The position numbers and the translations under genes are program-made. This document shows, one piece after another, positions 21,642-40,604 of a stretch of 64,000 bases of DNA (position 1 is the first letter of the stretch; the number at the start of each line of letters is the position of its first letter). The DNA comes from Alphaproteobacteria bacterium AO1-B (GTDB lineage: Bacteria; Pseudomonadota; Alphaproteobacteria; Rhizobiales; Stappiaceae). The stretch is from NCBI GenBank assembly GCA_001890945.1, contig MLAX01000005.1, positions 496,001 to 560,000 on the forward strand, in the 5' to 3' direction. The notes under the pieces are model-generated. The model did not search any database, was not told where the DNA came from, and saw only the letters and a program-made list of their open reading frames with translations.

Positions 21642-22670
21642 ATGGATTTCAAGGCGGTTTTCGGCGCAGCCCTGTTGGCGCTCGGCGCAACATCAGTGCA
21701 GGCTGCAGATCACGAATTCAAGCTGCACCACTTCCTGGGCGAAAAGGCCCCGGCACACTCCAAGATGCTGGTGCCCTGGGCCAAGCAGGTGGAGGAAAAT
21801 TCCGGCGGCAAGGTCTCCATCGAGATCTATCCGGCGATGACTTTGGGCGGCCGTCCGCCGGAGCTGATCAACCAGGTTCGCGACGGTGTTGTGGACCTTG
21901 TCTGGACGGTCAACGGCTATACACCCGGCCTGTTCCCGAGGTCTGAAGTCTTTGAGCTGCCGGGGGTCCACAAGAACGATACCGCAGCGACCAATCTGGC
22001 GCTTAAGGAACTCTTCGAGAGTGATCTGAAAGACGACTACAAGGGCGTTGAGGTCATGTTCCTCCATGTGCATGCCGGTCAGGGCATTCATATGCGCGAC
22101 ACGGAAGTGCGGTCAGTCGCAGACCTCAAGGACAAGAAAATCCGGATCCCGACACGCACGGGCGCCTGGGTGATTGAAGCGCTTGGCGCGTCCCCGGTTG
22201 CAATGCCGGTGCCGGAACTTCCACCTGCACTGCAGAAGGGTGTGATTGACGGGGCTATGATCCCTTGGGAAATCATTCCGCCGCTGAAGATCCAGGAGCA
22301 GACCAATTACCAGATCGAAGGTGCGGACAAGGAACGCTTTGGCACGACGGTGTTCCAGGTGTCCATGAATAAGGATCGCTGGGACAGCTTGCCGGAAGAT
22401 GTCCAGAAAGCCTTCCGCGATGCATCTGATGCTGCCTGGTCGAAGAAAGTTGGCGATATCTGGGCTGGTGCAGATGATTTTGGCATTGGGCTCGCGGTGA
22501 AGGCCGGCAACACGCATATCACCTTGACACCGGAAGAAACCGCGGAGTTCAACACAGCGCTTGAGCCGGTTGTCGGCCGCTGGGTCGAGGAAGTCTCCAG
22601 CAAAGGCATCGACGGGTCCGCCTTGGTGGACAAAGCCCGGGCCGCTGTTGCGAACAACGCGTCCAACTGA
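21642..22670 (+). CDS. dctP: TRAP transporter solute-binding protein (DctP family)
   Basis: A 342-residue periplasmic binding protein. The signal peptide covers about residues 1-22 (ends VQAADHE). The DctP fold is shown by FLGEKAPAHSKMLVPWAKQV, GGRPPELINQVRDGVVDLVW and the conserved ligand-carboxylate arginine segment KKIRIPTRTGAWVIEALGA, followed by PVPELPPALQKGVIDG. It captures a carboxylate ligand for the DctQM permease. The adjoining pob/pca genes suggest an aromatic acid such as 4-hydroxybenzoate or protocatechuate, but this is inference. RBS GGAGGAGG is close to the start. Confidence 0.93.
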   Translation: MDFKAVFGAALLALGATSVQAADHEFKLHHFLGEKAPAHSKMLVPWAKQVEENSGGKVSIEIYPAMTLGGRPPELINQVRDGVVDLVWTVNGYTPGLFPRSEVFELPGVHKNDTAATNLALKELFESDLKDDYKGVEVMFLHVHAGQGIHMRDTEVRSVADLKDKKIRIPTRTGAWVIEALGASPVAMPVPELPPALQKGVIDGAMIPWEIIPPLKIQEQTNYQIEGADKERFGTTVFQVSMNKDRWDSLPEDVQKAFRDASDAAWSKKVGDIWAGADDFGIGLAVKAGNTHITLTPEETAEFNTALEPVVGRWVEEVSSKGIDGSALVDKARAAVANNASN

Positions 22671-23179
22671 TGCCGGCAGATCAACAAACAGGCAATCCCG
22701 GGTTCACCGGGATTGCCAGCCGGGTCGTCACGGTCTGGGCTCTCCTTGGCGGAGGTGTACTTTTGGCCGTCGTTGCGGTGAACATGTTGTCCATCATCGG
22801 ATCCATGTTCGGTAAGCCTTTCCCCGGTGACTTTGAACTGACGGAAATGGGTGTCGCGATCGCAGTCTTTGCGTTCCTGCCCTATTGCCAGCTGACAGGC
22901 GCCAATGTGTCAGCGGATATTTTCACAGCTGGAGCCTCGAAGCGGTTGATCGCGTTCTTCACACTGCTTGGCTCGCTGGTTGCGCTTGGATTTGCGTCTC
23001 TGCTGATCTGGCGCATGTTCCACGGGATGCTCGACCAAAGAGAATACGGTTATACGACCACGATCTTGCAGATCCCGCACTGGATGGCGTTCGTTCCGGT
23101 CCTTGTGTCCCTTGTCTTGCTGGCCCTTGCAGCGCTCGTCACTTTGATGCGTGACACTTCAGCCCTGTCGAAAGGATAA
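22670..23179 (+). CDS. dctQ: TRAP transporter small permease (DctQ family)
   Basis: A 169-residue protein with four membrane helices. The family pattern is visible in FPGDFELTEMGVAIAVFAFLPYCQ in the first half and GYTTTILQIPHWMAFVPV before the last helix. It forms the membrane complex with DctM that imports the solute with Na+ or H+. Its ATG at 22670 overlaps the dctP stop (TGATG), and dctM follows after 6 bases. Confidence 0.93.
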   Translation: MPADQQTGNPGFTGIASRVVTVWALLGGGVLLAVVAVNMLSIIGSMFGKPFPGDFELTEMGVAIAVFAFLPYCQLTGANVSADIFTAGASKRLIAFFTLLGSLVALGFASLLIWRMFHGMLDQREYGYTTTILQIPHWMAFVPVLVSLVLLALAALVTLMRDTSALSKG

Positions 23180-23185
23180 CGATAA

Positions 23186-24541
23186 ATGGCAGACGCTGTT
23201 GTTCTCGGCGTGGGCGGGCTCGTCGCGCTGATCATCCTAATTGCGATCCGGATGCCGATTGCCTACGCGATGATCCTGGTTGGCGGCGTTGGCACCATGC
23301 TGCTCAACGGCCCGGCGTTGGTCTTCAGCCAGTTGAAGACGTTGGCTTATGGGCAGTTCTCGATCTACGACCTGTCCGTCGTGCCGATGTTTGTGTTGAT
23401 GGGGGCGATCGCCTCCAAGACAGGTCTTAGCCAGGCGCTGTTCCGGGGGGCAAATGCCTGGCTTGGCTGGCTGCGTGGTGGCACGGCGATGGCGGCGATT
23501 GCCGGCTGTGCGGGCTTCGGCGCGGTGTGTGGTTCGTCCCTTGCGACGGCCTCCACCATGGGCAAGGTCGCCTTGCCGGAATTGCGCCGCTACAAATACT
23601 CCGGGGCCCTTGCTACCGGGACACTGGCTGCTGGTGGCGTGCTCGGGATTTTGATCCCGCCCTCTGTTGTTCTGATCATTTACGCGATCATCGTTGAAGC
23701 GAACATCGTGACGATGTTCATGGCGGCGTTCCTGCCCGGCCTGCTGGCCGTAGTTTTGTTTCTGCTGACCATCGCGATCTATGTGGCGATCAAGCCGGAG
23801 GCGGGCCCGAAAGGCGGGGTGCCGGACCGCCGGGAGTTCATCGAGGCAACGGCCGGAATGATCCCGGTTCTGCTGATCTTTGCTCTTGTGATCGGCGGCA
23901 TTTATTTCGGCTTTTTCAACCCGACCCCGGCTGCTGCTGCCGGTGTGTTTCTCGTGCTTGTCTTCGGTCTCTTGCAGCGCAAGTTGTCCTGGCCGGACAT
24001 GCTGGGCGCGCTCAAGGAAACAGCTGCGACCTCAGGCATGATTTATCTGATCATCCTTGGCGCAGAACTGCTGAAGATTTTCATGTCGCGGGTGCGTCTG
24101 CCTCAGGAAACCGCTGCCTGGATCGCGGGCTCGGACCTTGAGCCGATGACCGTCCTGATCCTCCTGCTCGTTGCGCTTATCCTGCTCGGTTGCCTGATGG
24201 ACAGTCTGTCGATGATCCTGCTGGTGATCCCTTTCTTCTGGCCGGTATTGGTCGAGATCAATGGCGGGATCTATCAGGGCGCTGACGGCGCCGGGTTCGG
24301 CATGAGCACTGAAGATCTGAAGATCTGGTTCGGGATCCTCGCGCTCATTGTAGTGGAGCTTGGACTGATTACGCCGCCGGTCGGAATGAACGTGTTCGTG
24401 ATTTCCTCCCTGGCCCGCGACACCCCGATGATCGATACGTTCAAGGGCGTTGCGCCCTTCTTTGGCGCGGAGCTGGTGCGTGTGGTGCTTCTTGTCAGTT
24501 TCCCGGCGCTCACGCTGTGGCTGCCGAGTGTGCTCAGTTAG
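23186..24541 (+). CDS. dctM: TRAP transporter large permease (DctM family)
   Basis: A 451-residue protein with about 12 membrane segments. Family signatures are GSSLATASTMGKVALPELRR, the following AAGGVLGILIPPSVVLIIYA, and the C-terminal ELGLITPPVGMNVFVI. It is the transport subunit partnered by DctQ and DctP. It ends 62 bases before the converging pcaB gene; no clear terminator is seen in that gap. Confidence 0.95.
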   Translation: MADAVVLGVGGLVALIILIAIRMPIAYAMILVGGVGTMLLNGPALVFSQLKTLAYGQFSIYDLSVVPMFVLMGAIASKTGLSQALFRGANAWLGWLRGGTAMAAIAGCAGFGAVCGSSLATASTMGKVALPELRRYKYSGALATGTLAAGGVLGILIPPSVVLIIYAIIVEANIVTMFMAAFLPGLLAVVLFLLTIAIYVAIKPEAGPKGGVPDRREFIEATAGMIPVLLIFALVIGGIYFGFFNPTPAAAAGVFLVLVFGLLQRKLSWPDMLGALKETAATSGMIYLIILGAELLKIFMSRVRLPQETAAWIAGSDLEPMTVLILLLVALILLGCLMDSLSMILLVIPFFWPVLVEINGGIYQGADGAGFGMSTEDLKIWFGILALIVVELGLITPPVGMNVFVISSLARDTPMIDTFKGVAPFFGAELVRVVLLVSFPALTLWLPSVLS

Positions 24542-24603: not shown

Positions 24604-25911
24604 CTATCTCGACCGCCGGGCAAATATCTCGGCGGTCATTTCCTTGCAGGCCGGTATGACCGTTGCCGGATCAAGAACGGCGTCCCAGTCGATCCCATTG
24701 GGCGCCAGTTCCTTCAAGGTTGATTTGAAGTCAGCCTGTGACGCGGCCTTGGCAACAATGTCCTTGGCCTCTGCTCTCGGAACGCCGTTCTTGGCAAGCG
24801 CGAAGCTTGCGGCCTCTGCCATGATTTCCGGATGGTCCTTCAAGGCAGCAGAGATTCGGCCCTGGTTCGGCGACATGCTGTCTGCAAGCGCTTGGGCGTG
24901 GCGGAGGGCTGCGCCGGTTGCAATCAGCATTTGGGGCAAGAATGCCCATTCCAGTGGCCAGCGCGCGCCGTCCCGTTCTTCTGCCGGACTGGCCGCTGCC
25001 GCAATCCCGCCTGCGGACGTTTGCACGATGGTGTTGAGTGTCAGAATGGCTTCCGCCTGAACCGGATTGGCCTTTTGCGGCATTGTCGAGGACCCGCCGC
25101 CTGTTCCCGACGAGACCTCCGCAATATCTGATCGGCTGAGGAGAAGAAGATCGCCGGCCATTTTGGCAAGACCTGCGGTGAGGGCTTGCAGCCAAGCGGA
25201 CAGAGCGAGGATGTTCGACCGGTTCGTGTGCCAGGATGGCGAAAAATGGAGTTTGAGTTCCTTGGCAAGAGCCTCCGCGACACGCGGTCCATCTGGGACA
25301 ATCGCGCTGTTAACGCCGGAAGCCCCGCCGAACTGGACTTTCAGAACCTTCTTGCGAAGATCTGGCAGGTCAGCCTCAGCGTCGATTGGGCCGTGTGCCC
25401 ATTGGGCAATCCGGTATCCTAACGTGACAGGTGTCGAAATCTGCGACCGTGTCCGGCCGGCCAGAAGCTGATTGGCGTGCCGGACGCTTTCTGTTTCCAA
25501 AGTGTCGATCAGTTTACCAAGGCGTTCTTCCAGCACATCGAGGCAGCTCTTTGCCTGGAGAACCAGTGCGGTGTCCATCACGTCCTGGCTGGTGGCTCCC
25601 CAGTGCAGCCAGCTGCCTGCGTCGTCACCGGCGATCTTCCTCAAGGAAGCCACAAGTGCGGGAACAGGAATTCCAGCAGACCGCGTGCTGCTACTCAAAG
25701 CATTCGGCTCAATCTCAAAGGTTTCCAGAGCGGAGACGATGATCTCAGCAGCTTCGTCGGGGATGATGCCGAGGGCACCTTGTACTCTTGCGAGCGCCTG
25801 CTCGAAACGGATCATATGAAGGAGATCTGCGTCCTCATCCAGCCGCAAAACCAGATCGGCGTCGGAGTAAAGATCGGAAAAAACCGGGCTTGAAAACAGG
25901 GAAACAGGCAT
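24604..25911 (-). CDS. pcaB: 3-carboxy-cis,cis-muconate cycloisomerase
   Basis: PcaB lactonises 3-carboxy-cis,cis-muconate to 4-carboxymuconolactone. The 435-residue protein belongs to the fumarase/aspartase superfamily. The signature GSSTMPQKANPVQAE is intact, HWGATSQDVMDTALVLQ is the TS-x-DxxDT region and AGRTRSQISTPVTLG follows. ATG 25911 is taken; a TTG at 25926 in frame is also possible. It is the most distal gene of the pob-pca operon. A 54-base gap separates it from the BKACE gene. Confidence 0.95.
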   Translation of the reverse strand: MPVSLFSSPVFSDLYSDADLVLRLDEDADLLHMIRFEQALARVQGALGIIPDEAAEIIVSALETFEIEPNALSSSTRSAGIPVPALVASLRKIAGDDAGSWLHWGATSQDVMDTALVLQAKSCLDVLEERLGKLIDTLETESVRHANQLLAGRTRSQISTPVTLGYRIAQWAHGPIDAEADLPDLRKKVLKVQFGGASGVNSAIVPDGPRVAEALAKELKLHFSPSWHTNRSNILALSAWLQALTAGLAKMAGDLLLLSRSDIAEVSSGTGGGSSTMPQKANPVQAEAILTLNTIVQTSAGGIAAAASPAEERDGARWPLEWAFLPQMLIATGAALRHAQALADSMSPNQGRISAALKDHPEIMAEAASFALAKNGVPRAEAKDIVAKAASQADFKSTLKELAPNGIDWDAVLDPATVIPACKEMTAEIFARRSR

Positions 25912-25965
25912 GAAAACTGGGCTCAAACAAAGGGAGCTTGATCAAGAAACAACAAAGACTTGCCG

Positions 25966-26802
25966 TCAAGCGGCTTTGAGCGGAATCTGCAAGATCTCGC
26001 GTGCCTTTTGCCAGTCCGCAACCGGCCGCTCGTACTTTTCGCAAAGCTCAACCGCCCGTTTGACCAAAGCGGCATTGGACGGAGCAAGCCTGTCCTTGTC
26101 GAGGCGGATGTTGTCTTCCAGTCCGGTGCGAGTGTGCCCTCCGGCCGCGATCGACCACTCGTTGATGGTCAGCTGGTGACGGCCGATGCCGGCAGCACAC
26201 CATTCGGCATCCGGAACGAGCCGTTCGACAGTCTTGATGTAATAGTCGAACACATCCTTATCGACGGGCATAGCGTTCTTCACACCCATGACGAACTGGA
26301 CATAGAGACTGCCTGGTATGCGGCCGTCCTTGTTCATCGCCGCTGCCTGGTGAATGTGGCTGAGATCGAAAGCCTCGATCTCCGGTTTGATGGAGTAGGT
26401 CCGCATTTCTGCGGCCAGCCAGTCCACAAGATCCGGAGGGTTTTCGTAAACCCGCGTCGGGAAGTTGTTGGAGCCAACGGAAAGGGAGGCCATGTCCGGC
26501 TCAAGCGGCAGCATACCGCCGCGCGCTTTTCCAGCGCCTGAACGCCCGCCGGTCGAGAACTGGATGATCATGCCGGGACAGTGTTTTTCAAGACCTTCCT
26601 TTAATCGGGCAAATTTCTCCGGATCCGAAGACGGGCTTTGATCCTCGTTGCGCACATGGGCGTGGCAAATTGTGGCACCGGCTTCAAAGGCCTCGTGCGT
26701 ACTTTCGACCTGTTCAGCAACACTGACCGGCACAGCTGGATTGTTTTCTTTTGTCGGCAACGAACCGGTGATCGCAACACAGATGATGCAGGGTTTGCTC
26801 AT
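25966..26802 (-). CDS. Beta-keto acid cleavage enzyme (BKACE/DUF849) family
   Basis: A 278-residue TIM-barrel enzyme. The zinc ligands sit in the HxH motif CHAHVR. Other family marks are ICVAITGSLPTKENNP at the start, IIQFSTGGRSG, LSVGSNNFPTRVYENP, KPEIEAFDLSHI, VQFVMGVKNAMPVD and WCAAGIGRHQLTIN. BKACE enzymes condense a beta-keto acid with acetyl-CoA, releasing acetoacetate and a new CoA thioester. Within this operon the natural substrate would be 3-oxoadipate, giving acetoacetate and succinyl-CoA, which would replace PcaIJ and PcaF. That specificity is inferred. ATG 26802 with AGGCGG upstream overlaps no other gene and lies 7 bases after pcaG. Confidence 0.88.
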   Translation of the reverse strand: MSKPCIICVAITGSLPTKENNPAVPVSVAEQVESTHEAFEAGATICHAHVRNEDQSPSSDPEKFARLKEGLEKHCPGMIIQFSTGGRSGAGKARGGMLPLEPDMASLSVGSNNFPTRVYENPPDLVDWLAAEMRTYSIKPEIEAFDLSHIHQAAAMNKDGRIPGSLYVQFVMGVKNAMPVDKDVFDYYIKTVERLVPDAEWCAAGIGRHQLTINEWSIAAGGHTRTGLEDNIRLDKDRLAPSNAALVKRAVELCEKYERPVADWQKAREILQIPLKAA

Positions 26803-26809
26803 GTCCGCC

Positions 26810-27430
26810 TCAAATGTCGAAAAAAACGGTTTCGTCTTCGCCTTGCAGCTTGATATCAAACCGGTAGACCGGCGTGCCATCGTTATCTGTCCGCTCTGCA
26901 ATCAGTGTTGCGCGGCGGCGCTCCCACTCGATCAGATTTAGCACCGGATCGGCTGCATTGGCGGATGTCTCATCTGAAAAATAAAGCCGGGTTTGCAGCC
27001 CCAAATTGATTCCGCGTGCCACGATCCAGAGGCTGATATGCGGAGCCATTTGACGACCGTTCAGATCCGTGACCGCACCCGGCTTTACCGTCTCGAAAGT
27101 CCAGTAGCCGGTGTCGAAATCCGGAATAACCCGGCCCCAGCCCCTGAACCCGTCTTCAACCTCACCACGATGCTCTGGATGGGCATAGATGCCGTCTGCA
27201 TTGGCCTGCCAGGCTTCCAGAAGCACGTCCTTGATTGGAGACCCCATGCCATCAATGACGCCGCCCTCAACGCGAATGCGTTCGCCCTTTGCGTTTGGCC
27301 CGGCAATGTCATGCCCGAGCTCCTGGGCGTAAATGTCAAAACCGGCGGCTCCGGGCGCAAGGCCTATGTGGACATAAGGGCCCGCCGTCTGGGAGGGTGT
27401 TTCTTTCAAGTAATTCAGTGTCTGGCGCAT
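26810..27430 (-). CDS. pcaG: Protocatechuate 3,4-dioxygenase alpha subunit
   Basis: PcaG is the structural partner of PcaH in the intradiol ring-cleavage enzyme. The 206-residue protein shows the family start ETPSQTAGPYVHIGLAPG, RIRVEGGVIDGMG, VLLEAWQANADGIY and RQMAPHISLWIVARGIN. The alpha subunit lacks the full iron-ligand set of PcaH, as expected. It follows pcaH by 2 bases, with the RBS GGAGGGG inside the end of pcaH. Confidence 0.96.
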   Translation of the reverse strand: MRQTLNYLKETPSQTAGPYVHIGLAPGAAGFDIYAQELGHDIAGPNAKGERIRVEGGVIDGMGSPIKDVLLEAWQANADGIYAHPEHRGEVEDGFRGWGRVIPDFDTGYWTFETVKPGAVTDLNGRQMAPHISLWIVARGINLGLQTRLYFSDETSANAADPVLNLIEWERRRATLIAERTDNDGTPVYRFDIKLQGEDETVFFDI

Positions 27431-27432
27431 GA

Positions 27433-28158
27433 TCAGTTCCCCTCCGGCCGGTTTTCAAACAGCGTCGACCGGCGCCCACGCAACACGATGTCGAACTTGT
27501 AGGCTATGGTATCGAGGGGGATGGTGGTGTTGAGATCCAGTCGTGCGACCAGTTGATCAACCGCCTCCGGGTCGGGAATGGAGTTCACGATCGGGCATTT
27601 GGCGATCAACGGGTCGCCTTCAAAGTAGCACTGCGTGATTAGGCGCTGTGCGAAGGCGGAACCGAAGATGGAAATATGGACATGGGCCGGCCGCCAGTTG
27701 TTCACCCAATTGCGCCAGGGATATGCGCCAGGCTTCACGGTTCTGAACGCGTAGTACCCGTTCTCGTCCGTTAGTGTGCGGCCACAGCCGCCAAAATTCG
27801 GGTCAATCGGCGCGAGATAAGTGTCCTTCTTGTGTCGGTAACGGCCACCCGCATTGGCTTGCCAGATTTCGAGCAGTGTGTTCGGAACCGGCTTTGCATT
27901 CTCGTCGAGAACCCGTCCATGAAGGATGATGCGCTCGCCAATCGGGCTTTCGCCCGGTTTTGCGTAGTTCGACAGAAGATCCTTGTCGAGCGGGTCGATG
28001 TCGTTGTGTCCAAAGACCGGTCCGGTGATTTCGCTGACTGTCGTTTCCAGGCTGATCATCGAATACTGAGGGGATCTGGAAACGCTTGTCTTGTAGTCCG
28101 GCGTCAGCGCGGGCGGCTGCCATTGCCGGTCACGCTGGTAATAGGGGCCTGGTTTCAT
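27433..28158 (-). CDS. pcaH: Protocatechuate 3,4-dioxygenase beta subunit
   Basis: PcaH holds the non-heme Fe(III) that opens protocatechuate between its hydroxyls to 3-carboxy-cis,cis-muconate. The 241-residue protein has the four iron ligands in place: Tyr in [10 protein letters not shown], Tyr in [10 protein letters not shown] and the two His of [11 protein letters not shown]. The N-terminus ([20 protein letters not shown]) is typical. RBS GGAGG lies 9 bases before ATG 28158. Confidence 0.97.
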
Positions 28159-28181
28159 TGTGGCGTTCCTCCCGGCCGGCG

Positions 28182-28571
28182 TTATTCGCCCGCCTCCTCC
28201 CGTTCCATGTCCGCGTAAGTGTCCTTGGCAATCTTGAGCGCCTGGTTGGCCCGCGGAACTCCAGCATAAATCGCGACATGCTGGAAGGCTTCCAGAACAT
28301 CCTGCTTGCTAGCACCTGTCCGGGCCGTTGCTCGGATGTGCATGGCAATTTCCTCAAAATTCCCGAGAGCTGCCAAGAGGGCCAGCGTCAACATGGAGCG
28401 CTCGCGCGGGCTGATGCCGTCAGATGCCCAGACCGTTCCCCAGGCCGCCTCGGTGATCAGTGTTTGAAAGGGCGCATCGAGATCCGTCTTGGATGCTTCA
28501 GCGCGATCAACATGGGCGTCGCCCAAAACGGAGCGTCGGACATCCAAACCCTGCTCATACCGGTCAGACAT
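28182..28571 (-). CDS. pcaC: 4-carboxymuconolactone decarboxylase
   Basis: PcaC decarboxylates 4-carboxymuconolactone to 3-oxoadipate enol-lactone. The 129-residue AhpD-fold protein has the typical [20 protein letters not shown] start, the central [18 protein letters not shown] and the [19 protein letters not shown] region. It is a separate PcaC rather than a PcaL fusion. Its first codons overlap the end of pcaD by 8 bases, so translation is coupled. Confidence 0.96.
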
Positions 28572-29354
28572 GAGCGCTCTCCTTCAAAAAATCCTGCAAA
28601 TGGCCGGTAAACACGTCAGCCTGCTCAACACAGGGCAGGTGACCAGCGCTTGCTATCTCAATGAACTTGCTGCCACGGATCAGGTCCGTGGTGGCCTTTA
28701 CCTGTTCCGGAGGGCTGGCGAGATCTTCAGATCCGGCGAGCCCCAATACGGGAAGCGTCAATTCGGAGGTTGTCGCGGTGAGATCCGTTACGGCCAGGGC
28801 TTCACTGCAGCCGATATAACCCTCAGCTGGCGTCCGGCTCAGCATGTTGCGCCAGGCAATGCATTCGTCAGAGTGCCGGAAAGGGCCGGAGAACCAACGG
28901 TCCAGAACAGCGTCGGCGATACTTTCGACACCGCCTTTCCGGACTGCGGCAATCCGGGTCTGCCACATGTCTTCTGTTCCCATTTTTGCCGCTGTGCAGG
29001 CCAGAACAAGACAGGTCATGCGATCCGGCTGGCGATCGGCCAGCAGTTGTCCAATCATCCCGCCGATGGAAAGACCGACCAGCGAGAACTGAGATACGCC
29101 GATATGACCGAGCAATTCCTCCAGATCTACGACCAGATCCGTCATGGAATAAACATCAGAGGGGCAGGACGAGAGGCCATGGCCGCGCTTGTCGAAGCGG
29201 ATGTAGCGGAAGCCTTCTTCAGGAAGACGCTCGATGACCTTGTCCCAGAGCCGCAGATCCGTGCCGAGGGAGTTTGCAAACACGACAGAGGTGCCGGCCG
29301 GGTCGCCGTCCTCCCGCCAGTGAATGTCCGCATTTGTGAGCCGTGCGATGTGCA

Positions 29355-29355
<1 letters not shown>
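28564..29355 (-). CDS. pcaD: 3-oxoadipate enol-lactonase
   Basis: PcaD hydrolyses the enol-lactone to 3-oxoadipate. The 263-residue alpha/beta hydrolase has the oxyanion segment FANSLGTDLRLWD, RFDKRGHGLS, the nucleophile S96 in VGLSIGGM, an acid in LAGSEDLASPP and the final His in ASAGHLPCVEQ. ATG 29355 overlaps the pobA stop (TGATG). It lies between pobA and pcaC. Confidence 0.95.
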
Positions 29356-30524
<1,169 letters not shown>

Positions 30525-30618: not shown

Positions 30619-31539
30619 ATGATCGATCGGCGGATAAAATTCCGGCACATCCAATGTTTTGTCGAGATTGCGCAGGAACGCAGTCTGAAGCTCGCTGCCG
30701 ACAAGTTAAACCTTACTCAACCGGCCATATCCAAAACCCTCAAGGAATTGGAGGAAACGATTGGCGCGACACTGATGACCCGCAGCCGCGCGGGCATATC
30801 GCTGACGCCGCAAGGCAAGATGTTCCTGCATTTTGCGCAAATTTCCCTAGCCAGCCTCCAGCAGGGCCTGGACGGTGTGGTCAACGCCGGTGAGGAGGCG
30901 CGGGCCACTTTGACTGTTGGAGCTTTGCCGAGTGTTTCGGGAAGCTTCTTGCCCGCTGCCATCCGTGAATTCCGGGATCTGGCCCCAACGGTGATTCTGA
31001 AAATCCTTGATGGGCCGCACGGATATCTGATCGAGCGGTTGCGGCTGGGTGAAATCGATCTGGTGATTGGCCGCCTCGGACGCCCGGTCACCATGGAAGG
31101 AGTTTCGTTCACGCAGCTTTATTCTGAGCGGGTCGAGTTCGTCGTCCGGGCTGGTCATCCGCTCCTGGAAGCTCCGGATATCAAACGCATTGTTGATTGG
31201 CCGGTGCTCTATCCGCCGGAGGGGTCTGCCATCCGGCCTTTGGTTGAGCGGTATCTGATCGCCAACGGCGTTGCGGAAATTCCGAACCGGATTGAGACCG
31301 TGTCCGGTGCGTTCGGTCGTATTTATACGCGTCAGTCGGACGCTGTCTGGATCATCTCTTCCGGTGTGGTGCGCAATGAAACGGCTGATGGCGATCTGAT
31401 CCGCTTGCCCTTCGAAAGCGACATCACCAAAGGGCCGATCGGGTTGATGACCCGCCCCGATGCCCAGCCGAGCCCAGCCGAGCAGGTCTTCCGGCTGGCT
31501 GTTCAAACCGCCATTGAAAATTTGGGACTCTCCTCATGA
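30619..31539 (+). CDS. pcaQ: LysR-type regulator of the pca genes
   Basis: A 306-residue LysR protein. The winged-helix domain opens RRIKFRHIQCFVEIAQERSL and contains ADKLNLTQPAISKTLKELEE, close to known PcaQ sequences. The effector domain follows (about residues 90-300). PcaQ activates pca genes in response to pathway intermediates in rhizobia and relatives; here it is divergent from pobA, with an inverted repeat between. Its stop overlaps the start of the ThDP enzyme gene (ATGA), so that gene is probably co-expressed. Confidence 0.9.
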   Translation: MIDRRIKFRHIQCFVEIAQERSLKLAADKLNLTQPAISKTLKELEETIGATLMTRSRAGISLTPQGKMFLHFAQISLASLQQGLDGVVNAGEEARATLTVGALPSVSGSFLPAAIREFRDLAPTVILKILDGPHGYLIERLRLGEIDLVIGRLGRPVTMEGVSFTQLYSERVEFVVRAGHPLLEAPDIKRIVDWPVLYPPEGSAIRPLVERYLIANGVAEIPNRIETVSGAFGRIYTRQSDAVWIISSGVVRNETADGDLIRLPFESDITKGPIGLMTRPDAQPSPAEQVFRLAVQTAIENLGLSS

Positions 31540-33293
31540 GCAAGACTGCGACGACTTCTGCCAATGGCGATGCTTTGCGCTCTAAAAGTGCAACAGAAGA
31601 GATTGTCTCCATCACATCCGGAGGGGCTCTGCTCAGCCGGATGAAAGCGATTGGCATTGACTACATTTTTGCAAATTCCGGGACGGATTTCCCGCCGGTG
31701 ATTGAAGGTCTTGCCGAGGCAGATGCCAAGAACATCGATCTACCGGAAGCGATTGTCATCCCGCACGAAAGTGCGGCCATGGGCATGGCGCATGGCTATT
31801 ACCTTGGCACTGGCAAAACGGCGGCAGTAATGGCGCACACGAATGTGGGGCTTGCGAACTGTGCGATAGGCACGATCAACGCATCGATCGAAAACATACC
31901 AATGATGCTCTTTTCCGGGAGAACCCCAACAACAGAGCAGGGGCGGTTCGGGTCGCGAACCGTTCCGATCGGCTGGGGGCAGGAAATGCGCGATCAAACC
32001 GCTTTGGTCCGTGAAGCCTGCAAATGGGACTATGAGCTGCGGTTTCCCGAGCAGACTGTCGAAACGGTTGACCGGGCGAAAGCGCTTGCCGAGACAACAC
32101 CGCGCGGTCCGGTCTATGTGAGCTTGCCGCGCGAAGTCCTATGTGAGCTTTGCCCGGTGGACCAATTGGGCTCGCCAGCGATTATGGTCGCGCCGCAGCC
32201 GGGTATCGACCAAGCCGCCATTACACGGGCAGTCGAACTTATTTCCCAAGCTGACAATCCAGTGATTTTCGCGCAGCGCGGAGCCGGTGGCGCCGACGGC
32301 TTTGCAGCTCTTGCCGGGATGGCGGAGCGATGGGGCATGCCTGTCTGCCAATACTGGGCTGTGCGGCTTGCGATGGATCTCGATCATCCGATGGCTGCCG
32401 GCAACGATCCGGCCGTTCTTCTGGAAACCGCAGATGTTGTTCTGGTTATCGACAGTCTGGCTCCCTGGGCGCCGGACAAACACAAGCTAAAGCCCGGATG
32501 CAAGGTGATACACCTCGGGCAAGATCCCCTTTTCAGCAAAGTTCCGGTGCGCAATTTCCAATGTGATCTGGCAATCGCATCGGACGTGCAGCCGGGAATC
32601 GTCGCTTTGAAGGCAGCTTTGGATGAGCTTGAACTGTCCGAAAAAGCAGCGCCGAGACGAGCCCAATGGGCTGCGCGCAACAAGGCAAACCGGCAAGCCG
32701 TTTTGGCATCGGCTGAAGCCGATGGATCGGGGCGCATCACCAAGAATTTGGTCAGTCTGTGCCTGTCCCGCGTATTGGGGGATCAAAAAGCATCGGTGCT
32801 TTCAGAACTCGGCTGCCCTCCTGCGCCCATGAGTTTAAACCACTGGCAGGCCTGGTATCAGGAGCCCCATGCGGGCGGGCTCGGCTGGTGTTTTCCAGCC
32901 GCTCTTGGCATGAAGCTCGGCGCACCGGATCGCACCATTGTAGCGACCATGGGAGACGGGTCCTACATGTATTCCAACCCGGTGGTTTGTCATCAGATTG
33001 CCGAAGCTCTCGACCTGCCGATCCTTGTGATCGTTTTAAACAATGCAGAGTGGGGTGCGGTACGCCAGTCTGTTCTGGATCATTATCCGGATGGCTATGC
33101 GGCCCGAAGCAACAGGATGCCGTTGACCCAACTGTCGCCGGTGCCGGATTTTACGCATGTTGCCAATGCCAGTCGCGCCTATGCTGAGCGTGTCGAACAG
33201 GCGACAGATCTGGAGGCAGCTCTCAGAGATGCGCTCAAGCAAATCGAGCAAAACAAAACCCTCGCATTATTGGATGTTGTTGTGTCGCGGTAG
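31536..33293 (+). CDS. Thiamine diphosphate-dependent enzyme of acetolactate synthase/benzoylformate decarboxylase type
   Basis: A 585-residue three-domain ThDP enzyme. The catalytic glutamate of the PYR domain is in IPHESAAMGMAHG, the middle domain carries VIFAQRGAGG, and the PP domain has the cofactor motif GDGSYMYSNPVVCHQ ending in VLNN. GGLGWCFPAALG resembles 2-oxo-acid decarboxylases. It overlaps pcaQ by 4 bases, so it belongs to the aromatic regulon. A role in decarboxylating an aryl-2-oxoacid to an aldehyde ahead of 4-hydroxybenzoate is possible, but acetolactate-type carboligation or oxalyl-CoA-like chemistry cannot be ruled out. Confidence 0.82.
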   Translation: MSKTATTSANGDALRSKSATEEIVSITSGGALLSRMKAIGIDYIFANSGTDFPPVIEGLAEADAKNIDLPEAIVIPHESAAMGMAHGYYLGTGKTAAVMAHTNVGLANCAIGTINASIENIPMMLFSGRTPTTEQGRFGSRTVPIGWGQEMRDQTALVREACKWDYELRFPEQTVETVDRAKALAETTPRGPVYVSLPREVLCELCPVDQLGSPAIMVAPQPGIDQAAITRAVELISQADNPVIFAQRGAGGADGFAALAGMAERWGMPVCQYWAVRLAMDLDHPMAAGNDPAVLLETADVVLVIDSLAPWAPDKHKLKPGCKVIHLGQDPLFSKVPVRNFQCDLAIASDVQPGIVALKAALDELELSEKAAPRRAQWAARNKANRQAVLASAEADGSGRITKNLVSLCLSRVLGDQKASVLSELGCPPAPMSLNHWQAWYQEPHAGGLGWCFPAALGMKLGAPDRTIVATMGDGSYMYSNPVVCHQIAEALDLPILVIVLNNAEWGAVRQSVLDHYPDGYAARSNRMPLTQLSPVPDFTHVANASRAYAERVEQATDLEAALRDALKQIEQNKTLALLDVVVSR

Positions 33294-35335: not shown

Positions 35336-36121
35336 TCAGTTCGTCCAGGCTGGTTTTCTTTTTTCAAAAAACGCAGATGTGCCCTCATTGGCGTCCGGCG
35401 TTTCCCACGTGTCCGCCAGTCTTTGGATCGTATCGTCGATGACAGCGTCTGTAATCACGGGGCCAAGAGACCGGGCAAGGGCCTTTGACGCTGCAACAGC
35501 TGCGGGAGCCGCGCTCAAATAAGGTTTGATTTCCTTCTCAATGGCCGCATCGAGGTCATCGGCGCTCACCACCTTGGCGGCGAGATCAAGATCCCGGGCC
35601 TCTTCCGCACCGAAAATGCGCGCGGACATGAACACCCGGCGCGCGTTGCCTTCACCCATCCGGGCCAAAACGTAGGGGCTGATGGTCGCCGGGATAAGCC
35701 CGAGACGAACCTCGGTCAGTCCGAACTTTGCGGTGTCGACGGCAACCACCGTGTCACAAACGCTCATCATGCCGATGCCGCCACCGAAGGCCTGTCCCTG
35801 AACCCGACCAATCACCGGTTTTGGCAGTTCATTCAGAGCTTTCAGCATCATGGCGAGCTTGCGGGCTTCGGCCATGCGTGTGTCGCGGTCAGCTGCCATC
35901 TGCTCGCGCATCCAGGCGAGATCGCCCCCGGCGCAAAAGCTTTCGCCTGCGCCTGTCAGGACAACAACACGGACCGCGTCGTCAGATCCGAGTTGGTCTG
36001 CAGCGTCCGTAAGTTCATCGATCATCTTGGCCGACAGGGAATTATGCTTTTCCGGGCGGTTCAGGGTCAGCGTTGCAACGCCGCGGTCATCCGTTTCAAT
36101 CGAGATCGTCTCAAAACTCAT
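35336..36121 (-). CDS. liuC: Enoyl-CoA hydratase family, likely methylglutaconyl-CoA hydratase
   Basis: A 261-residue crotonase-fold protein. The oxyanion-hole motifs are LTGAGESFCAGGDLAWMRE and VQGQAFGGGIGMMSVCD, followed by FGLTEVRLGLIPATISPYV, which supplies the catalytic Glu. In this operon the expected step is hydration of 3-methylglutaconyl-CoA to HMG-CoA. It is the last gene of the operon and overlaps the lyase gene by 4 bases (ATGA). It converges with the upstream membrane-protein gene. Confidence 0.9.
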   Translation of the reverse strand: MSFETISIETDDRGVATLTLNRPEKHNSLSAKMIDELTDAADQLGSDDAVRVVVLTGAGESFCAGGDLAWMREQMAADRDTRMAEARKLAMMLKALNELPKPVIGRVQGQAFGGGIGMMSVCDTVVAVDTAKFGLTEVRLGLIPATISPYVLARMGEGNARRVFMSARIFGAEEARDLDLAAKVVSADDLDAAIEKEIKPYLSAAPAAVAASKALARSLGPVITDAVIDDTIQRLADTWETPDANEGTSAFFEKRKPAWTN

Positions 36122-36978
36122 GCGGTGTCACTCCGAAGGGATTTTGCAAATTCGGCAAGTTCGGCCAGTTTCTCAAGTCTCAAACCGGTCTCAAAGCCCC
36201 GGCGCTGCATCAGCTCTGCAACGGCCTCTGTGGCAACGTTGCCCTTGGCGCCGGGGGCATAGGGGCAGCCGCCCAGTCCGCCAATGGTGCTGTCGAACGT
36301 GCGCAGGCCTTTCTCAAGGCTGACCTCGATGTTCTCCAGCGCCCGGCCCTTGGTGTCGTGATAATGCCCGGCGACCTTTTCAGCTGGCACCACGTTGAGA
36401 ACAGCATCGAGCATCCGGCCGATGGTTTCCGGCGTGCCGGCACCGATGGTGTCTCCTAGGGAAATCTCGTAGCAGCCAAGCTCGTATAGGATCTTTGCGA
36501 CTTCGGCGACCTTTTCGGGCGGCGTCGGGCCGTCATAAGGGCAATCGGTGACGCAGGAAACATAGCCGCGCACCGGCATTTCGTCCTGACGGGCCTTTTC
36601 CAGCAGCGGCTTGAAACGTTCGATGCTTTCTGCGACCGAGCAGTTGATGTTCTTCTTTGAAAAGCCCTCAGAAGCCGAGCCGAAGATGGCCACCTCGTCC
36701 GCCGAGACCTTCAGAGCGGCCGTGTAGCCTTTGACGTTCGGTGTCAGAACAGAATAGACAACAGCCGGATGGCGGTAGATACCTTCCATGACCTCTTGCG
36801 CATCGGCCATTTGCGGCACCCATTTGGGGCTGACAAAGCTGGTGACTTCGATCTTGCGAAACCCACATTCGGAAAGACGGTCGACAAGAGCAATCTTGTC
36901 TTCCGTCGGGACAAACCGCTTTTCGTTCTGAAGCCCGTCGCGCGGACCCATTTCGAAGATGGTGACAAACTCGGACAT
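36118..36978 (-). CDS. liuE: Hydroxymethylglutaryl-CoA lyase
   Basis: The enzyme splits HMG-CoA to acetyl-CoA and acetoacetate, the end of leucine breakdown. The 286-residue TIM barrel begins IFEMGPRDGLQNEKRFV (catalytic Arg and Asp), has VTSFVSPKWVPQMADA, the metal-binding HYHDTKGRAL and the active-site cysteine loop GGLGGCPYAPGAKGN. ATG 36978 matches the family start, and AAGGA lies upstream. It lies between an acyl-CoA synthetase and the hydratase. Confidence 0.96.
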   Translation of the reverse strand: MSEFVTIFEMGPRDGLQNEKRFVPTEDKIALVDRLSECGFRKIEVTSFVSPKWVPQMADAQEVMEGIYRHPAVVYSVLTPNVKGYTAALKVSADEVAIFGSASEGFSKKNINCSVAESIERFKPLLEKARQDEMPVRGYVSCVTDCPYDGPTPPEKVAEVAKILYELGCYEISLGDTIGAGTPETIGRMLDAVLNVVPAEKVAGHYHDTKGRALENIEVSLEKGLRTFDSTIGGLGGCPYAPGAKGNVATEAVAELMQRRGFETGLRLEKLAELAEFAKSLRSDTA

Positions 36979-36991
36979 GAGCGCTTTTTCC

Positions 36992-38623
36992 TTAATCAGT
37001 CTCAGCCGCGCGGGCGCGGAGCTCACGCCGGATGACCTTGCCGGTGTTGGTCATCGGTAGAGCGTCAACGAACTCGATTTCACGCGGATATTCATGGGCG
37101 GCCAGCCGGATCTTGACGAAGTCGGCGATCTCCTTGGCCAAGGCGTCGGACGGTTCGACATCCTGCTTCAGGATGATGTAGGCCTTGACGATCTCGGTGC
37201 GCTGGGCATCCGGTTTGCCGATGACACCGGCCATCGCAACGGCGGGATGCTTGATCAGGCAGTCTTCGATCTCGCCGGGCCCGATCCGGTAGCCAGACGA
37301 GGTGATGACATCATCGTCCCGGCCCACGAAACGGATCCAGCCGTCCTCATCCATCTCGCCCGTGTCACCCGTCAGCAGCCAGTCACCGGCGAATTTCTTC
37401 TGAGTGGCGGCCTCGTTGTTCCAGTACTTCAGGAACATCACGGGATCCGGCCGTTTGACGGCAATATTGCCGAAGGTACCGGAGGGCAGAACCTGACCAG
37501 CATCACTGACGATCGCAAGTTCATGACCCGGAACAGCCTTGCCCATGATGCCGGGCCGTGCGTCCATGATTTCAGAGCAGCTGGAGACGATCATGTTGCA
37601 TTCGGTCTGGCCGTAGAACTCGTTGATTGTCCGGCCGAAGGTTTTGCGGCCCCAGTCAATGAGCTCTGCGCCAAGGGTCTCGCCGCCGGAGGCGACGGTC
37701 CGCAAATTCAACTGCCAGCGGTCTTCCGGGGCATCGAGTTGACGCATCATTTTCAGCGCCGTTGGCGGGATGAAAGCGTTGCGGATGTTTTGGTCCTGAA
37801 GCAGCTGGAAGGCCGCTTCCGCCGTGAACTTCTTGAAACGGCAGGCCACGACCGGGACACCGAGATAAAGCGCCGGCATCAGCACGTCCAGCAGGCCGCC
37901 AATCCAGGCCCAGTCCGCAGGTGTCCAGATGCGGTCTTCTGGCTGGCCGAGAAAATCATGGCTCATCTCAACTCCGGGAAGGTGTCCAAGCAAAACCCGG
38001 TGCCCGTGGAGTGCACCCTTTGGCTGCCCGGTCGTGCCGGAGGTGTAGATGATGATGGCCGGGTCATCTGGCTGCGTGTTGACGGGTTCGAAGGTCTCTT
38101 CGTGACCTTCCATTGAGGCCCAAAGATCATCAGCGCCATGGTGCGCGCCATCTGCACAAAAGACGGTTGTCAGTTCGGGCAAGCTGCCGTGGACTTTTTC
38201 AAGCTTCGCCGCACCGCTTTCATCCGTAATGACGGCCTTGGCACCAGAATCCTTGAGCCGGTATTCCAGGGCTTCTTCGCCGAAGAGGACGAACAGCGGG
38301 ATGGAAATCCCGCCGAGTTTCAGCGCTGCGATATGAGCAAAGGCTGTTTCCGGGCGCTGCGGCATCAAGATGCCGATCCGGTCACCCTGCTGAATGCCCC
38401 GGCTCTTCAGGAGGTTGGCCAGCTGATTGGAAAGCCGTTTCAACGCGCCATAGGAATAGCTGTGAGCGGGTTGGCCTTCTTCAGCATAAACCAGAGCTTC
38501 GCGGCGCGGTTCCTTGTCGGCCCAGGCGTCACAAATCGCGACACCGATGTTGAACCGTTCCGGGATCGGCCACGAAAACCTCTCGGTCAGCTCCTTGTAG
38601 GTTTTTGCCTCAGGCAGCAGCAT
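36992..38623 (-). CDS. AMP-forming acyl-CoA synthetase
   Basis: A 543-residue ANL-superfamily ligase. The P-loop IIYTSGTTGQPKGALHGH, the adenylate motif EFYGQTECNM, TGDTGEMDEDGWIRFVGRDD and the hinge-to-C-domain segment SGYRIGPGEIE are all present, with the catalytic Lys in NTGKVIRREL. The gene sits inside the leucine/isovalerate operon, so isovalerate, a related branched acid or acetoacetate is the likely substrate. ATG 38623 with GGAGG upstream lies inside the end of liuD, showing coupling. Confidence 0.9.
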   Translation of the reverse strand: MLLPEAKTYKELTERFSWPIPERFNIGVAICDAWADKEPRREALVYAEEGQPAHSYSYGALKRLSNQLANLLKSRGIQQGDRIGILMPQRPETAFAHIAALKLGGISIPLFVLFGEEALEYRLKDSGAKAVITDESGAAKLEKVHGSLPELTTVFCADGAHHGADDLWASMEGHEETFEPVNTQPDDPAIIIYTSGTTGQPKGALHGHRVLLGHLPGVEMSHDFLGQPEDRIWTPADWAWIGGLLDVLMPALYLGVPVVACRFKKFTAEAAFQLLQDQNIRNAFIPPTALKMMRQLDAPEDRWQLNLRTVASGGETLGAELIDWGRKTFGRTINEFYGQTECNMIVSSCSEIMDARPGIMGKAVPGHELAIVSDAGQVLPSGTFGNIAVKRPDPVMFLKYWNNEAATQKKFAGDWLLTGDTGEMDEDGWIRFVGRDDDVITSSGYRIGPGEIEDCLIKHPAVAMAGVIGKPDAQRTEIVKAYIILKQDVEPSDALAKEIADFVKIRLAAHEYPREIEFVDALPMTNTGKVIRRELRARAAETD

Positions 38624-40604
38624 CGGCTTCCTCCGCAAGAACCAGAAGGATCGTTCCGTCGGTCACCTGTTCGCCCTCATTGACCATCACTTCACCAATG
38701 ACCCCATCGCGCGGGGCTTTCAGCGTGTGTTCCATTTTCATGGCTTCCAGAATGATCAAGGGCTGATCCTTGGTGACCGCATCGCCGGCCTTGGCGTTTA
38801 GCATTTTGACAAGGCCTGGCATTGGGGCAATCAGCTGATCGCCCGCACCGGCAGCTTCCTCATCAGAGCTCAGCGCGTCCGGCAGTCCAACCGTGAAGGC
38901 ATGGCCGGACATGAAGACCGTAAGTCCCTTGCCATCGTGAACCACGGAACCGGAAGCCCGGTGGCCGTTGCTGTCATACGTGATGGTGCTGCCATCCACC
39001 TGCACCAGGGTGAAATCCTTCGGGCCGCTGCTGAGATGCACGGTGAACTTGTTTTGGCCCTGGGCGTGAACCTCAACATCCCTGCGCTCACCGGCAATTT
39101 CGAGAAGCGCGAACTGACGTGAGGCACTCCAGATTCGCCATCCAGCGAGTGTTTCGAACGGATCGTTGCCATCTGCTGGACTGGTAAGGCCAAGCGCGGT
39201 CAGCGCGGCAAGCGCGATTGCGTCTTCTGGCATCTCCGGTTCGGCGATCAGGCTTTCCAGATCGCGGTCGATCAGGCCGGTGTCGACGTCCCCGTTGGCA
39301 AAGCCTTCGTGGCGGCAAAGCGCGGCCAGGAACCCGGCGTTGGTCACGCACCCGGCAACTTCCGTGGCCTCGAGACTGGCGAGCAACTTGCCAAGCGCGG
39401 CATCACGCGATGGACCGTGTACGATCACTTTCGCGATCATCGGATCATAGAAGGGGGAAATCTCGTCTCCTGCCCGGACGCCGCTGTCGACGCGGGCCTG
39501 GGTTTCGGGAAGAACGAGGTGCTCCAATGTGCCAATCGCAGGCAAGAAGCCCTTCGGTGCATCTTCCGCATAAAGGCGGGCCTCAAAAGCCCAACCGTTG
39601 ATCGAAAGTTCCTCTTGCGCCTTTGGCAGAGGCTCTCCGGAAGCAACACGCAGCTGCCACTCGACGAGGTCCTGTCCGGTGATCAGCTCTGTTACCGGGT
39701 GCTCAACTTGCAGACGGGTGTTCATCTCCATAAAATAGAAGCGGTCGGCGCGCAGACCTTCGGAGACGTCAACGATGAACTCGATGGTGCCGGCACCGGA
39801 ATAGTTGATCGCCTTGGCCGCCTTAACGGCCGCCTCACCCATGGCCGTGCGCATCTCTTCCGGCATGTCGGGGGCCGGAGCCTCCTCAATGACCTTCTGG
39901 TGGCGCCTTTGCAGCGAGCAGTCGCGCTCAAACAGATGCACGGCATTGCCATGATTGTCGCCGAAGACCTGGATTTCGATGTGACGCGGTTTGGCGACAT
40001 ATTTCTCAATGAGGACCCGGCCATCGCCAAAGCTTGCCTCGCCTTCGCGCTGGGCGGACTTGAGCGCGGAGATAAAGTCTTCCGCCCGTTCAACCTTGCG
40101 CATGCCTTTGCCGCCGCCGCCAGCGCGCGCCTTGATCAGAACCGGATAGCCGATCTTGCCGGCCTGGATCTGCAAGAAACCAGGGTCCTGGGTCTCCCGG
40201 TGGTAGCCCGGCACGACCGGAACGCCAGCCTTTTCCATCAGTGCTTTGGCCGCATCCTTCAGACCCATGGCGCGGATGGCATCCGCGCTCGGACCGATGA
40301 ATATGATCCCGGCTGCGTCCAGGGCGTCCACGAAGTCCGGGTTTTCCGACAGGAAGCCGTATCCCGGGTGGACCGCCTCTGCGCCGCTTTGTTTGCAGAC
40401 CTCGATGATCTTGGCGATCTGCAGATAGCTCTCGGAGACCGGAGCCGGACCGATGCGGTACGCTTCGTCGGCCATTGCAACATGTTTGGCGTTTGCATCG
40501 GCGTCGGAATAGACGGCTACGGTTTTAACGCCGAGTTCGCGGGCTGTTTCCATGACCCGGCAGGCGATTTCACCACGGTTGGCAATGAGGATTTTCTTAA
40601 ACAT
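38610..40604 (-). CDS. liuD: Methylcrotonyl-CoA carboxylase biotin-containing alpha subunit
   Basis: A 664-residue subunit with biotin carboxylase and biotin-carrier parts. The N-terminal FKKILIANRGEIACRV, the ATP-grasp loop KARAGGGGKGMR and the catalytic EMNTRLQVEHPVTE are intact. The biotin lysine sits in ILEAMKMEHTL near the C-terminus. With LiuB it carboxylates 3-methylcrotonyl-CoA to 3-methylglutaconyl-CoA. A propionyl-CoA carboxylase role is less likely given the neighbouring HMG-CoA lyase. Confidence 0.95.
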   Translation of the reverse strand: MFKKILIANRGEIACRVMETARELGVKTVAVYSDADANAKHVAMADEAYRIGPAPVSESYLQIAKIIEVCKQSGAEAVHPGYGFLSENPDFVDALDAAGIIFIGPSADAIRAMGLKDAAKALMEKAGVPVVPGYHRETQDPGFLQIQAGKIGYPVLIKARAGGGGKGMRKVERAEDFISALKSAQREGEASFGDGRVLIEKYVAKPRHIEIQVFGDNHGNAVHLFERDCSLQRRHQKVIEEAPAPDMPEEMRTAMGEAAVKAAKAINYSGAGTIEFIVDVSEGLRADRFYFMEMNTRLQVEHPVTELITGQDLVEWQLRVASGEPLPKAQEELSINGWAFEARLYAEDAPKGFLPAIGTLEHLVLPETQARVDSGVRAGDEISPFYDPMIAKVIVHGPSRDAALGKLLASLEATEVAGCVTNAGFLAALCRHEGFANGDVDTGLIDRDLESLIAEPEMPEDAIALAALTALGLTSPADGNDPFETLAGWRIWSASRQFALLEIAGERRDVEVHAQGQNKFTVHLSSGPKDFTLVQVDGSTITYDSNGHRASGSVVHDGKGLTVFMSGHAFTVGLPDALSSDEEAAGAGDQLIAPMPGLVKMLNAKAGDAVTKDQPLIILEAMKMEHTLKAPRDGVIGEVMVNEGEQVTDGTILLVLAEEADAAA

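Follow-up and report, generated by a model that had tools for sequence, protein, structure and literature searches.

BKACE (DUF849) proteins acting on beta-ketoadipate have been proposed in Methylobacterium and in Ralstonia. In Methylobacterium, a BKACE gene lies between pcaG and pcaB in a cluster without pcaIJF (PMC8963497, 2022), and Bastard 2014 is cited there for its predicted action on beta-ketoadipate. A later study stated the reaction proposed below and reported that Methylobacterium extorquens grew on protocatechuate when supplied with pcaHGBL and kce (PMC12379598, 2025). In Ralstonia eutropha H16, the BKACE of a catBCD-COG3246 arrangement was proposed to cleave beta-ketoadipate (PMC6449761, 2019). 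The stretch of DNA analysed here (the window: 64,000 nucleotides, positions 496,001 to 560,000 of contig MLAX01000005.1 from Alphaproteobacteria bacterium AO1-B) contained a BKACE gene at 25966-26802 on the minus strand, within the operon pobA-pcaD-pcaC-pcaH-pcaG-BKACE-pcaB. A BKACE ending in the order pcaG-kce-pcaB, without pcaIJF, was already published for Methylobacterium and is therefore not new here. For the SCOT step and the family-wide pattern described below, no published account was found in a search covering few subscription papers.

A third described system is Roseovarius nubinhibens (PMC12442348, 2025). An unlinked ‘3-oxoacid CoA-transferase’, assigned by the authors as PcaIJ, was needed there for growth on 4-hydroxybenzoate, and the transferase mutant consumed this substrate poorly. 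Loss of either pcaF or a second thiolase gene alone made no observable difference to growth, but with both inactivated the cultures ended at a lower density. The main text of that article contained no mention of DUF849, BKACE, kce, keto acid cleavage, 3-keto-5-aminohexanoate or SCOT.

In AO1-B, the protocatechuate branch would end with the BKACE, which would replace PcaIJ and PcaF. By a Claisen-type exchange it would convert 3-oxoadipate and acetyl-CoA to succinyl-CoA and acetoacetate. Either scoAB (SCOT type) or atoDA would then turn acetoacetate and succinyl-CoA into acetoacetyl-CoA and succinate, and a general thiolase would split acetoacetyl-CoA with CoA into two acetyl-CoA, one of them repaying the acetyl-CoA spent. 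The net conversion, 3-oxoadipate and CoA to succinate and acetyl-CoA, would equal that of the classical pathway. Family scores and gene content make it probable that the BKACE ends the branch and that acetoacetate is then activated by a SCOT/Ato transferase and split by a thiolase; the substrate and products in this organism, the involvement of SCOT and the resulting net conversion are inferred.

BKACE and the probable end of the protocatechuate branch in AO1-B

The BKACE, a predicted 3-oxoadipate:acetyl-CoA acetyltransferase of 278 aa, scored 307.3 bits against PF05853 (cut-off 24.8). With NF053568, the equivalog model that bears the name of this activity, it reached 500.5 bits (cut-off 350). 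Against the lysine-fermentation (3-keto-5-aminohexanoate) model it scored 250 bits, below the cut-off of 382. The nearest solved relatives in the PDB were 3fa5, 3chv and 3no5, all deposited as uncharacterized proteins; the window protein scored 490 bits with 3fa5 and 166 bits with the lysine-fermentation enzyme Kce (2y7d). Six residues of the BKACE recurred in Kce and in two distant paralogues encoded by this genome: H47, H49, R51, E143, R225 and E229. The zinc HxH motif, read as intact in the first-pass annotation, was present as H47-A-H49. In Kce the HxH motif is metal-binding, and the family consists of metal-dependent TIM-barrel enzymes.

Four further residues, R87, R117, K175 and R233, were kept in at least 97% of 88 aligned clade members (for the clade alignment, sequences with a stop or shorter than 260 aa were dropped, leaving 86). 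Kce and the two distant paralogues had no Arg or Lys of the same kind at these positions (87 was Lys in one, and 117 fell in a gap in one). Arg87, next after an STGG motif, was invariant in the 88 clade sequences, whereas the three distant proteins had Ala, Met or Lys there. The four residues may bind the second carboxylate; their conservation is weak evidence because the clade sequences are closely related.

The genome, of 5.2 Mb and with an estimated completeness of 99.99%, contained five PF01144 matches: scoA, scoB, atoD, atoA and one 524-aa protein. A pcaIJ pair elsewhere in the genome was rejected on these matches, and the sole genome match to Rhizobium PcaI at 1e-55 was scoA, at 47% identity. 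One protein exceeded the pcaF cut-off (694.6 bits, cut-off 597). It was encoded on another contig and followed by paaA, paaC and paaZ, and is therefore probably PaaJ, the phenylacetate-pathway thiolase; a dedicated pcaF elsewhere in the genome seems unlikely, since this single protein sits in the paa operon. Within the window, the absence of pcaI, pcaJ and pcaF stated in the first-pass annotation was borne out: none was among the proteins scanned around the operon, and neither PF01144 nor the pcaF model had an in-window match. No acetoacetyl-CoA synthetase in the genome passed its cut-off (best 269.6 bits, cut-off 520.9). A ligase of the leucine (liu-type) cluster, at 36992-38638, fell under every NCBIfam cut-off; with this gene, a ligase route for acetoacetate is the less likely alternative.

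In total, the genome contained four BKACE-family genes. The second copy, on contig C10 (7950-8783 of locus L025), was 84% identical to the window BKACE and scored 498.5 bits against NF053568. Upstream of it on the same strand were two intradiol dioxygenases and a maleylacetate reductase-like protein. The best solved relative of the dioxygenases was 6-chlorohydroxyquinol 1,2-dioxygenase, with hydroxyquinol 1,2-dioxygenases among the next, and the reductase was closest to the maleylacetate reductases 3w5s and 3hl0. The product of maleylacetate reductase is 3-oxoadipate. The C10 operon is of the hydroxyquinol type, and the BKACE subfamily thus appears in two separate routes to 3-oxoadipate.

The C10 BKACE was followed by a malonic semialdehyde reductase-type protein (L025, 8803-9462; NF003768 274 bits, cut-off 152), and such a gene stood at the same place in four of 80 named loci listed (L055, L056, L057 and L063). 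The remaining two BKACEs were remote (28-30% identical) and had other gene settings. One of them, on contig C12 (L024, 4201-10510), lay beside a carnitine 3-dehydrogenase (737 bits, cut-off 592), with an enoyl-CoA hydratase-family protein and, below their cut-offs, acyl-CoA dehydrogenase-like and ADP-forming ligase-like proteins; this is a probable carnitine breakdown cluster.

The BKACE reaction on 3-oxoadipate, as put forward in the first-pass annotation, is very likely, given the NF053568 match, the lack of PcaIJ and the paralogue in a second 3-oxoadipate operon; the tendency towards exclusion between BKACE and PcaI-type genes described below also favours it. Its description of the ending as “CoA-transferase-free” is probably wrong, because acetoacetate must still be activated. 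Both scoAB and atoDA were present, no acetoacetyl-CoA synthetase scored over cut-off, and a SCOT-type transferase lies beside BKACE in several relatives. Most likely, the transferase step has been shifted from 3-oxoadipate to acetoacetate, not lost.

BKACE, PcaI-type and SCOT-type genes in relatives

Eighty named loci among the matches listed were compared. Labrenzia sp. R4_2 was the best named match, at 98% identity, and Roseibium/Labrenzia strains came next; in the NCBI taxonomy, Roseibium belongs to the Stappiaceae (Hyphomicrobiales). In 51 of the 80 loci, pcaG preceded BKACE on the same strand by no more than 0.8 kb, and in 40 of these by no more than 120 bases. BKACE also came after pcaG in Ruegeria pomeroyi DSS-3. 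A PcaI query (L114), taken from a Phaeobacter inhibens pcaIJF operon, was run in 50 of these 51 pcaG-BKACE genomes, L051 being left out. Identities were bimodal: 64-83% in 10 genomes, only 41-49% in 35, and no match at 1e-20 in five. The upper-group genes formed pcaIJF triplets in all ten genomes; the other 40 genomes showed no PcaI-type gene. Several of the 50 were metagenome-assembled genomes (MAGs).

A sample of 199 genomes from the order of AO1-B, including the window's own genome, was searched for PcaH at 1e-50 and BKACE at 1e-60. PcaH was found in 86 genomes and BKACE in 51. PcaI-type genes were defined by an identity of at least 54% and a score of about 230 bits or more, a threshold chosen after the scores had been seen. 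They occurred in one of 36 genomes with both PcaH and BKACE, as against 17 of 50 with PcaH and no BKACE (Fisher p 3e-4; 1/35 against 17/50 without the window's genome). With PcaH at 60% identity or above, the counts were 1/29 and 15/31 (p 8e-5), and p ranged from 8e-5 to 0.009 over 16 threshold combinations, with or without the window's genome. Neither BKACE nor a PcaI-type gene was found in 33 of the 50 PcaH genomes lacking BKACE, so other solutions or undetected transferases exist.

The 150 genomes sampled from the Leisingera family contained BKACE in 107, PcaH in 95, PcaI-type genes in 22 and SCOT-type genes in 139. BKACE accompanied PcaH in 89 of the 95 PcaH-bearing genomes; 13 of these 89 had a PcaI-type gene and 87 had SCOT. 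PcaI-type genes were found in 17 of the 95, comprising four of six genomes without BKACE and 13 of 89 with it (p 0.009). This set included four genomes pre-chosen for pcaG-BKACE (G018, G019, G041 and G050), and without them the comparison was 12/85 with BKACE against 4/6. In 59 genomes, BKACE and pcaH shared a strand and were no more than 4 kb apart; 12 of these genomes had a PcaI-type gene elsewhere. Among PcaH-bearing genomes, PcaI-type genes tend to be missing where BKACE is present, and the survey suggests that a BKACE ending is common in marine relatives. The presence of SCOT alone proves little, because it is near-universal in the Leisingera family.

The position of SCOT-type genes was recorded as well. 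In P. inhibens P88, the transferase pair (subunits A and B) came right after BKACE in the order pcaC-H-G-BKACE-A-B-pcaD-pcaB. In Paracoccus aminovorans the order was pcaD-C-H-G-BKACE-A-B-pcaB, the last gene being annotated as a lyase family protein. Among 122 BKACE places, the Leisingera survey added four genomes in which a SCOT subunit A was encoded on the BKACE strand no more than 4 kb away; about 0.13 would be expected by chance, taking roughly one SCOT in a genome of 3.9 Mb and counting 4 kb to each side on that strand. One of the four (L135, genome G281) had all of the pca genes, pcaB separating BKACE from the transferase pair, and another (L137, G312) had pcaC-H-G-BKACE-A with subunit B 1.9 kb further. 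The other two (L134, G349; L136, G336) had BKACE-A-B without pcaHG, L136 beside an intradiol dioxygenase. A Roseicyclus MAG with a partial subunit A at a contig end near BKACE is probably a seventh such relative, besides these six. None of the PcaI-type genes in the Leisingera-family survey had a BKACE within 10 kb.

A FastTree phylogeny grouped all seven subunits A with the scoA of the window's genome (support 0.98), apart from PcaI/CatI (support 0.987). The P. inhibens subunit A scored 335 bits against solved SCOT and 189 against AtoD, and the window genome's scoA scored 334 and 189 bits, respectively; the PcaI of the P. inhibens P78 pcaIJF operon scored 175 and 168 bits. Identification of the BKACE-adjoining transferase of relatives as PcaIJ was rejected on these scores and on the tree grouping. 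SCOT activates acetoacetate, which BKACE is expected to release as its second product.

Weighing the proposed ending against other explanations

Several observations weigh against an ending by BKACE and SCOT. No pcaG was shown in 29 of the 80 named loci listed; at least L055, L056, L057 and L063 among them had genes of the hydroxyquinol type, and some of the 29 ended at contig edges. Ten of the 50 pcaG-BKACE genomes, including the nearest named relative Labrenzia sp. R4_2, also had pcaIJF elsewhere, so the BKACE and PcaIJF routes can coexist. In the order of AO1-B, BKACE was within 6 kb of pcaH in only 13 of 36 genomes with both; for the remaining 23, only co-occurrence ties BKACE to protocatechuate. 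BKACE was found without a PcaH match in 15 of 51 genomes of that order and in 18 of 107 of the Leisingera family. The PcaI-type threshold was set post hoc, and the Fisher tests treat genomes as independent though they are related. A Nitratireductor MAG (L075, 8983-12160) had the order pcaD-C-H-G-BKACE-pcaF-pcaB, and its PcaF-type thiolase, 75% to that of P. inhibens, is unexplained by the model; no transferase subunit A was found in this MAG at 1e-20, and no pcaIJ on the L075 stretch. No pca-type gene of the query set was near scoAB or atoDA in the window's genome, for which reason the role of these transferases is only inferred. In the excerpts on the M. extorquens growth test, no kce-free version was seen (PMC12379598).

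Classical chemistry could also be carried out by borrowed enzymes, in which case scoAB or atoDA would activate 3-oxoadipate itself, PaaJ would split the product and BKACE would be an accessory. All of these parts are at hand, since scoAB, atoDA and a 3-oxoadipyl-CoA thiolase-scoring protein are encoded in the genome, and the R. nubinhibens mutants were read as PcaIJ plus interchangeable thiolases (PMC12442348). What such a scheme leaves unexplained is the occurrence of a 3-oxoadipate-named BKACE in two separate 3-oxoadipate operons and the negative association of BKACE with PcaI-type genes. The lack of an observable growth difference in the two R. nubinhibens single thiolase mutants, with a lower final density in the double mutant, also speaks against it, and we regard it as unlikely.

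Two further explanations were judged less favourably. Both routes might run in parallel, with BKACE as an overflow or tuning branch, as the PcaI-type genes in 10 of 50 pcaG-BKACE genomes and in 13 of 89 Leisingera-family genomes with PcaH and BKACE would allow. With no PcaIJ found in the window's genome, and with 76 of those 89 genomes lacking a PcaI-type gene by the chosen threshold, this is quite improbable for AO1-B. Hardly credible is that BKACE acts on another beta-keto acid and owes its place in the operon to chance. The family is promiscuous (PMC4922564), the 29 named loci without pcaG would accord with another substrate, and near relatives are called 3-keto-5-aminohexanoate cleavage protein in most of 40 listed plasmid records, a lysine-fermentation name that is a poor fit to the pca context. 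The scores against the lysine-fermentation and 3-oxoadipate models (250 and 500 bits; cut-offs 382 and 350, respectively) and the presence of pcaG shortly before BKACE in 51 of the 80 named loci argue for 3-oxoadipate as the substrate, and BKACE followed by SCOT or Ato remains the preferred ending.

Operon, flanking genes and comparison with described systems

The first-pass annotation had placed pobA, pcaD, pcaC, pcaH, pcaG and pcaB in one operon with BKACE between pcaG and pcaB, and open reading frames and NCBIfam models confirmed this minus-strand run, with pcaQ divergent. All operon genes but pcaB passed curated NCBIfam cut-offs. The run comprised pobA (4-hydroxybenzoate 3-monooxygenase, 29355-30524; TIGR02360 683.9 bits, cut-off 538.7), pcaD (3-oxoadipate enol-lactonase, 28564-29391; TIGR02427 293.2 bits, cut-off 255.85), pcaC (4-carboxymuconolactone decarboxylase, 28182-28571; TIGR02425 194.4 bits, cut-off 155.7), pcaH (27433-28158; TIGR02422 367.5 bits, cut-off 296.4), pcaG (protocatechuate 3,4-dioxygenase alpha, 26810-27430; TIGR02423 254.7 bits, cut-off 126.25), BKACE, and pcaB (24604-25926; best family TIGR02426, 307.5 bits, below the cut-off of 355.75). 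The pcaD start is a mechanical open reading frame call, and the true start may be slightly downstream. For BKACE, the start called by the tool (TTG, 26901) would overlap pcaG, and the ATG at 26802, 7 bases past the pcaG stop, is most likely the start of the 278-aa protein.

The LysR-type activator gene pcaQ was at 30619-31539 on the plus strand (TIGR02424 404.3 bits, cut-off 303.8). None of the window's 45 loose matches to a Sinorhizobium-type PcaQ box lay between pobA and pcaQ, and the 45 matches were not clearly more than chance (mean 31, sd 7.5; six of 100 shuffles had as many). A thiamine-diphosphate-dependent enzyme (31536-33293, plus strand; NF006203 654 bits, cut-off 456) is probably co-transcribed with pcaQ because its start falls within the pcaQ end. 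The HMG-CoA lyase that the first-pass annotation had assigned to the liu operon was found at 36118-37026 on the minus strand (NF004283 458 bits, cut-off 246) and is a second source of acetoacetate. On the other side, a TRAP transporter set (21642-24541, plus strand) adjoined the pca operon. Its large subunit recurred at 80% identity or more in 11 of the 80 named loci listed, all of Roseibium/Labrenzia type. The set may import 4-hydroxybenzoate or a similar acid, since a TRAP set adjoining the R. nubinhibens pca cluster has been reported (PMC12442348).

AO1-B resembles R. nubinhibens in having a pob-pca cluster without pcaIJ, an unlinked 3-oxoacid CoA-transferase and adjoining TRAP genes. The chances are about even that roseobacters and Roseibium-type bacteria as a rule end the pathway with BKACE and then SCOT, that no 3-oxoadipyl-CoA is formed, and that the R. 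nubinhibens “PcaIJ” is a SCOT. If so, this ending would account for a transferase mutant that fails and a pcaF mutant that grows; the authors' PcaIJ with interchangeable thiolases also fits the mutant pattern. Provided that the species belongs to the same group, the frequencies in Leisingera-family PcaH genomes (BKACE in 89 of 95, PcaI-type genes in 17 of 95) make the reinterpretation plausible, and it offers a concrete second account of the 2025 mutant study. Textbooks describe the beta-ketoadipate pathway as a route for aromatics derived from lignin, and roseobacters count among the major bacteria of the sea. Should BKACE and SCOT be their usual ending, annotation and metabolic models that seek pcaIJF would be wrong for many such genomes, as would the naming of any 3-oxoacid CoA-transferase as PcaIJ.

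The window shares with the Methylobacterium pcaHG-kce-pcaB cluster the position of BKACE, the absence of pcaIJF from the cluster and the proposed reaction. In contrast to that system, it has separate pcaD and pcaC genes; the M. nodulans construct has pcaL, which we take to be a fusion. The linked pobA and pcaQ, the Roseibium-like host and the second BKACE in a hydroxyquinol-type operon are further differences. Both BKACE copies score above the equivalog cut-off of NF053568, whose founder, judging by the model's short name, may come from Cupriavidus necator; the activity of the window protein is predicted. The Ralstonia BKACE belongs to a catechol branch under CatM/BenM control, whereas that of the window belongs to a protocatechuate branch with a linked pcaQ (PMC6449761). 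Compared with Kce of lysine fermentation (2y7d), the window BKACE keeps the HxH, Arg and Glu-Asp core. The substrate of Kce is 3-keto-5-aminohexanoate, and Kce has Ala, Asp, Pro and Phe where the clade has Arg87, Arg117, Lys175 and Arg233, respectively.

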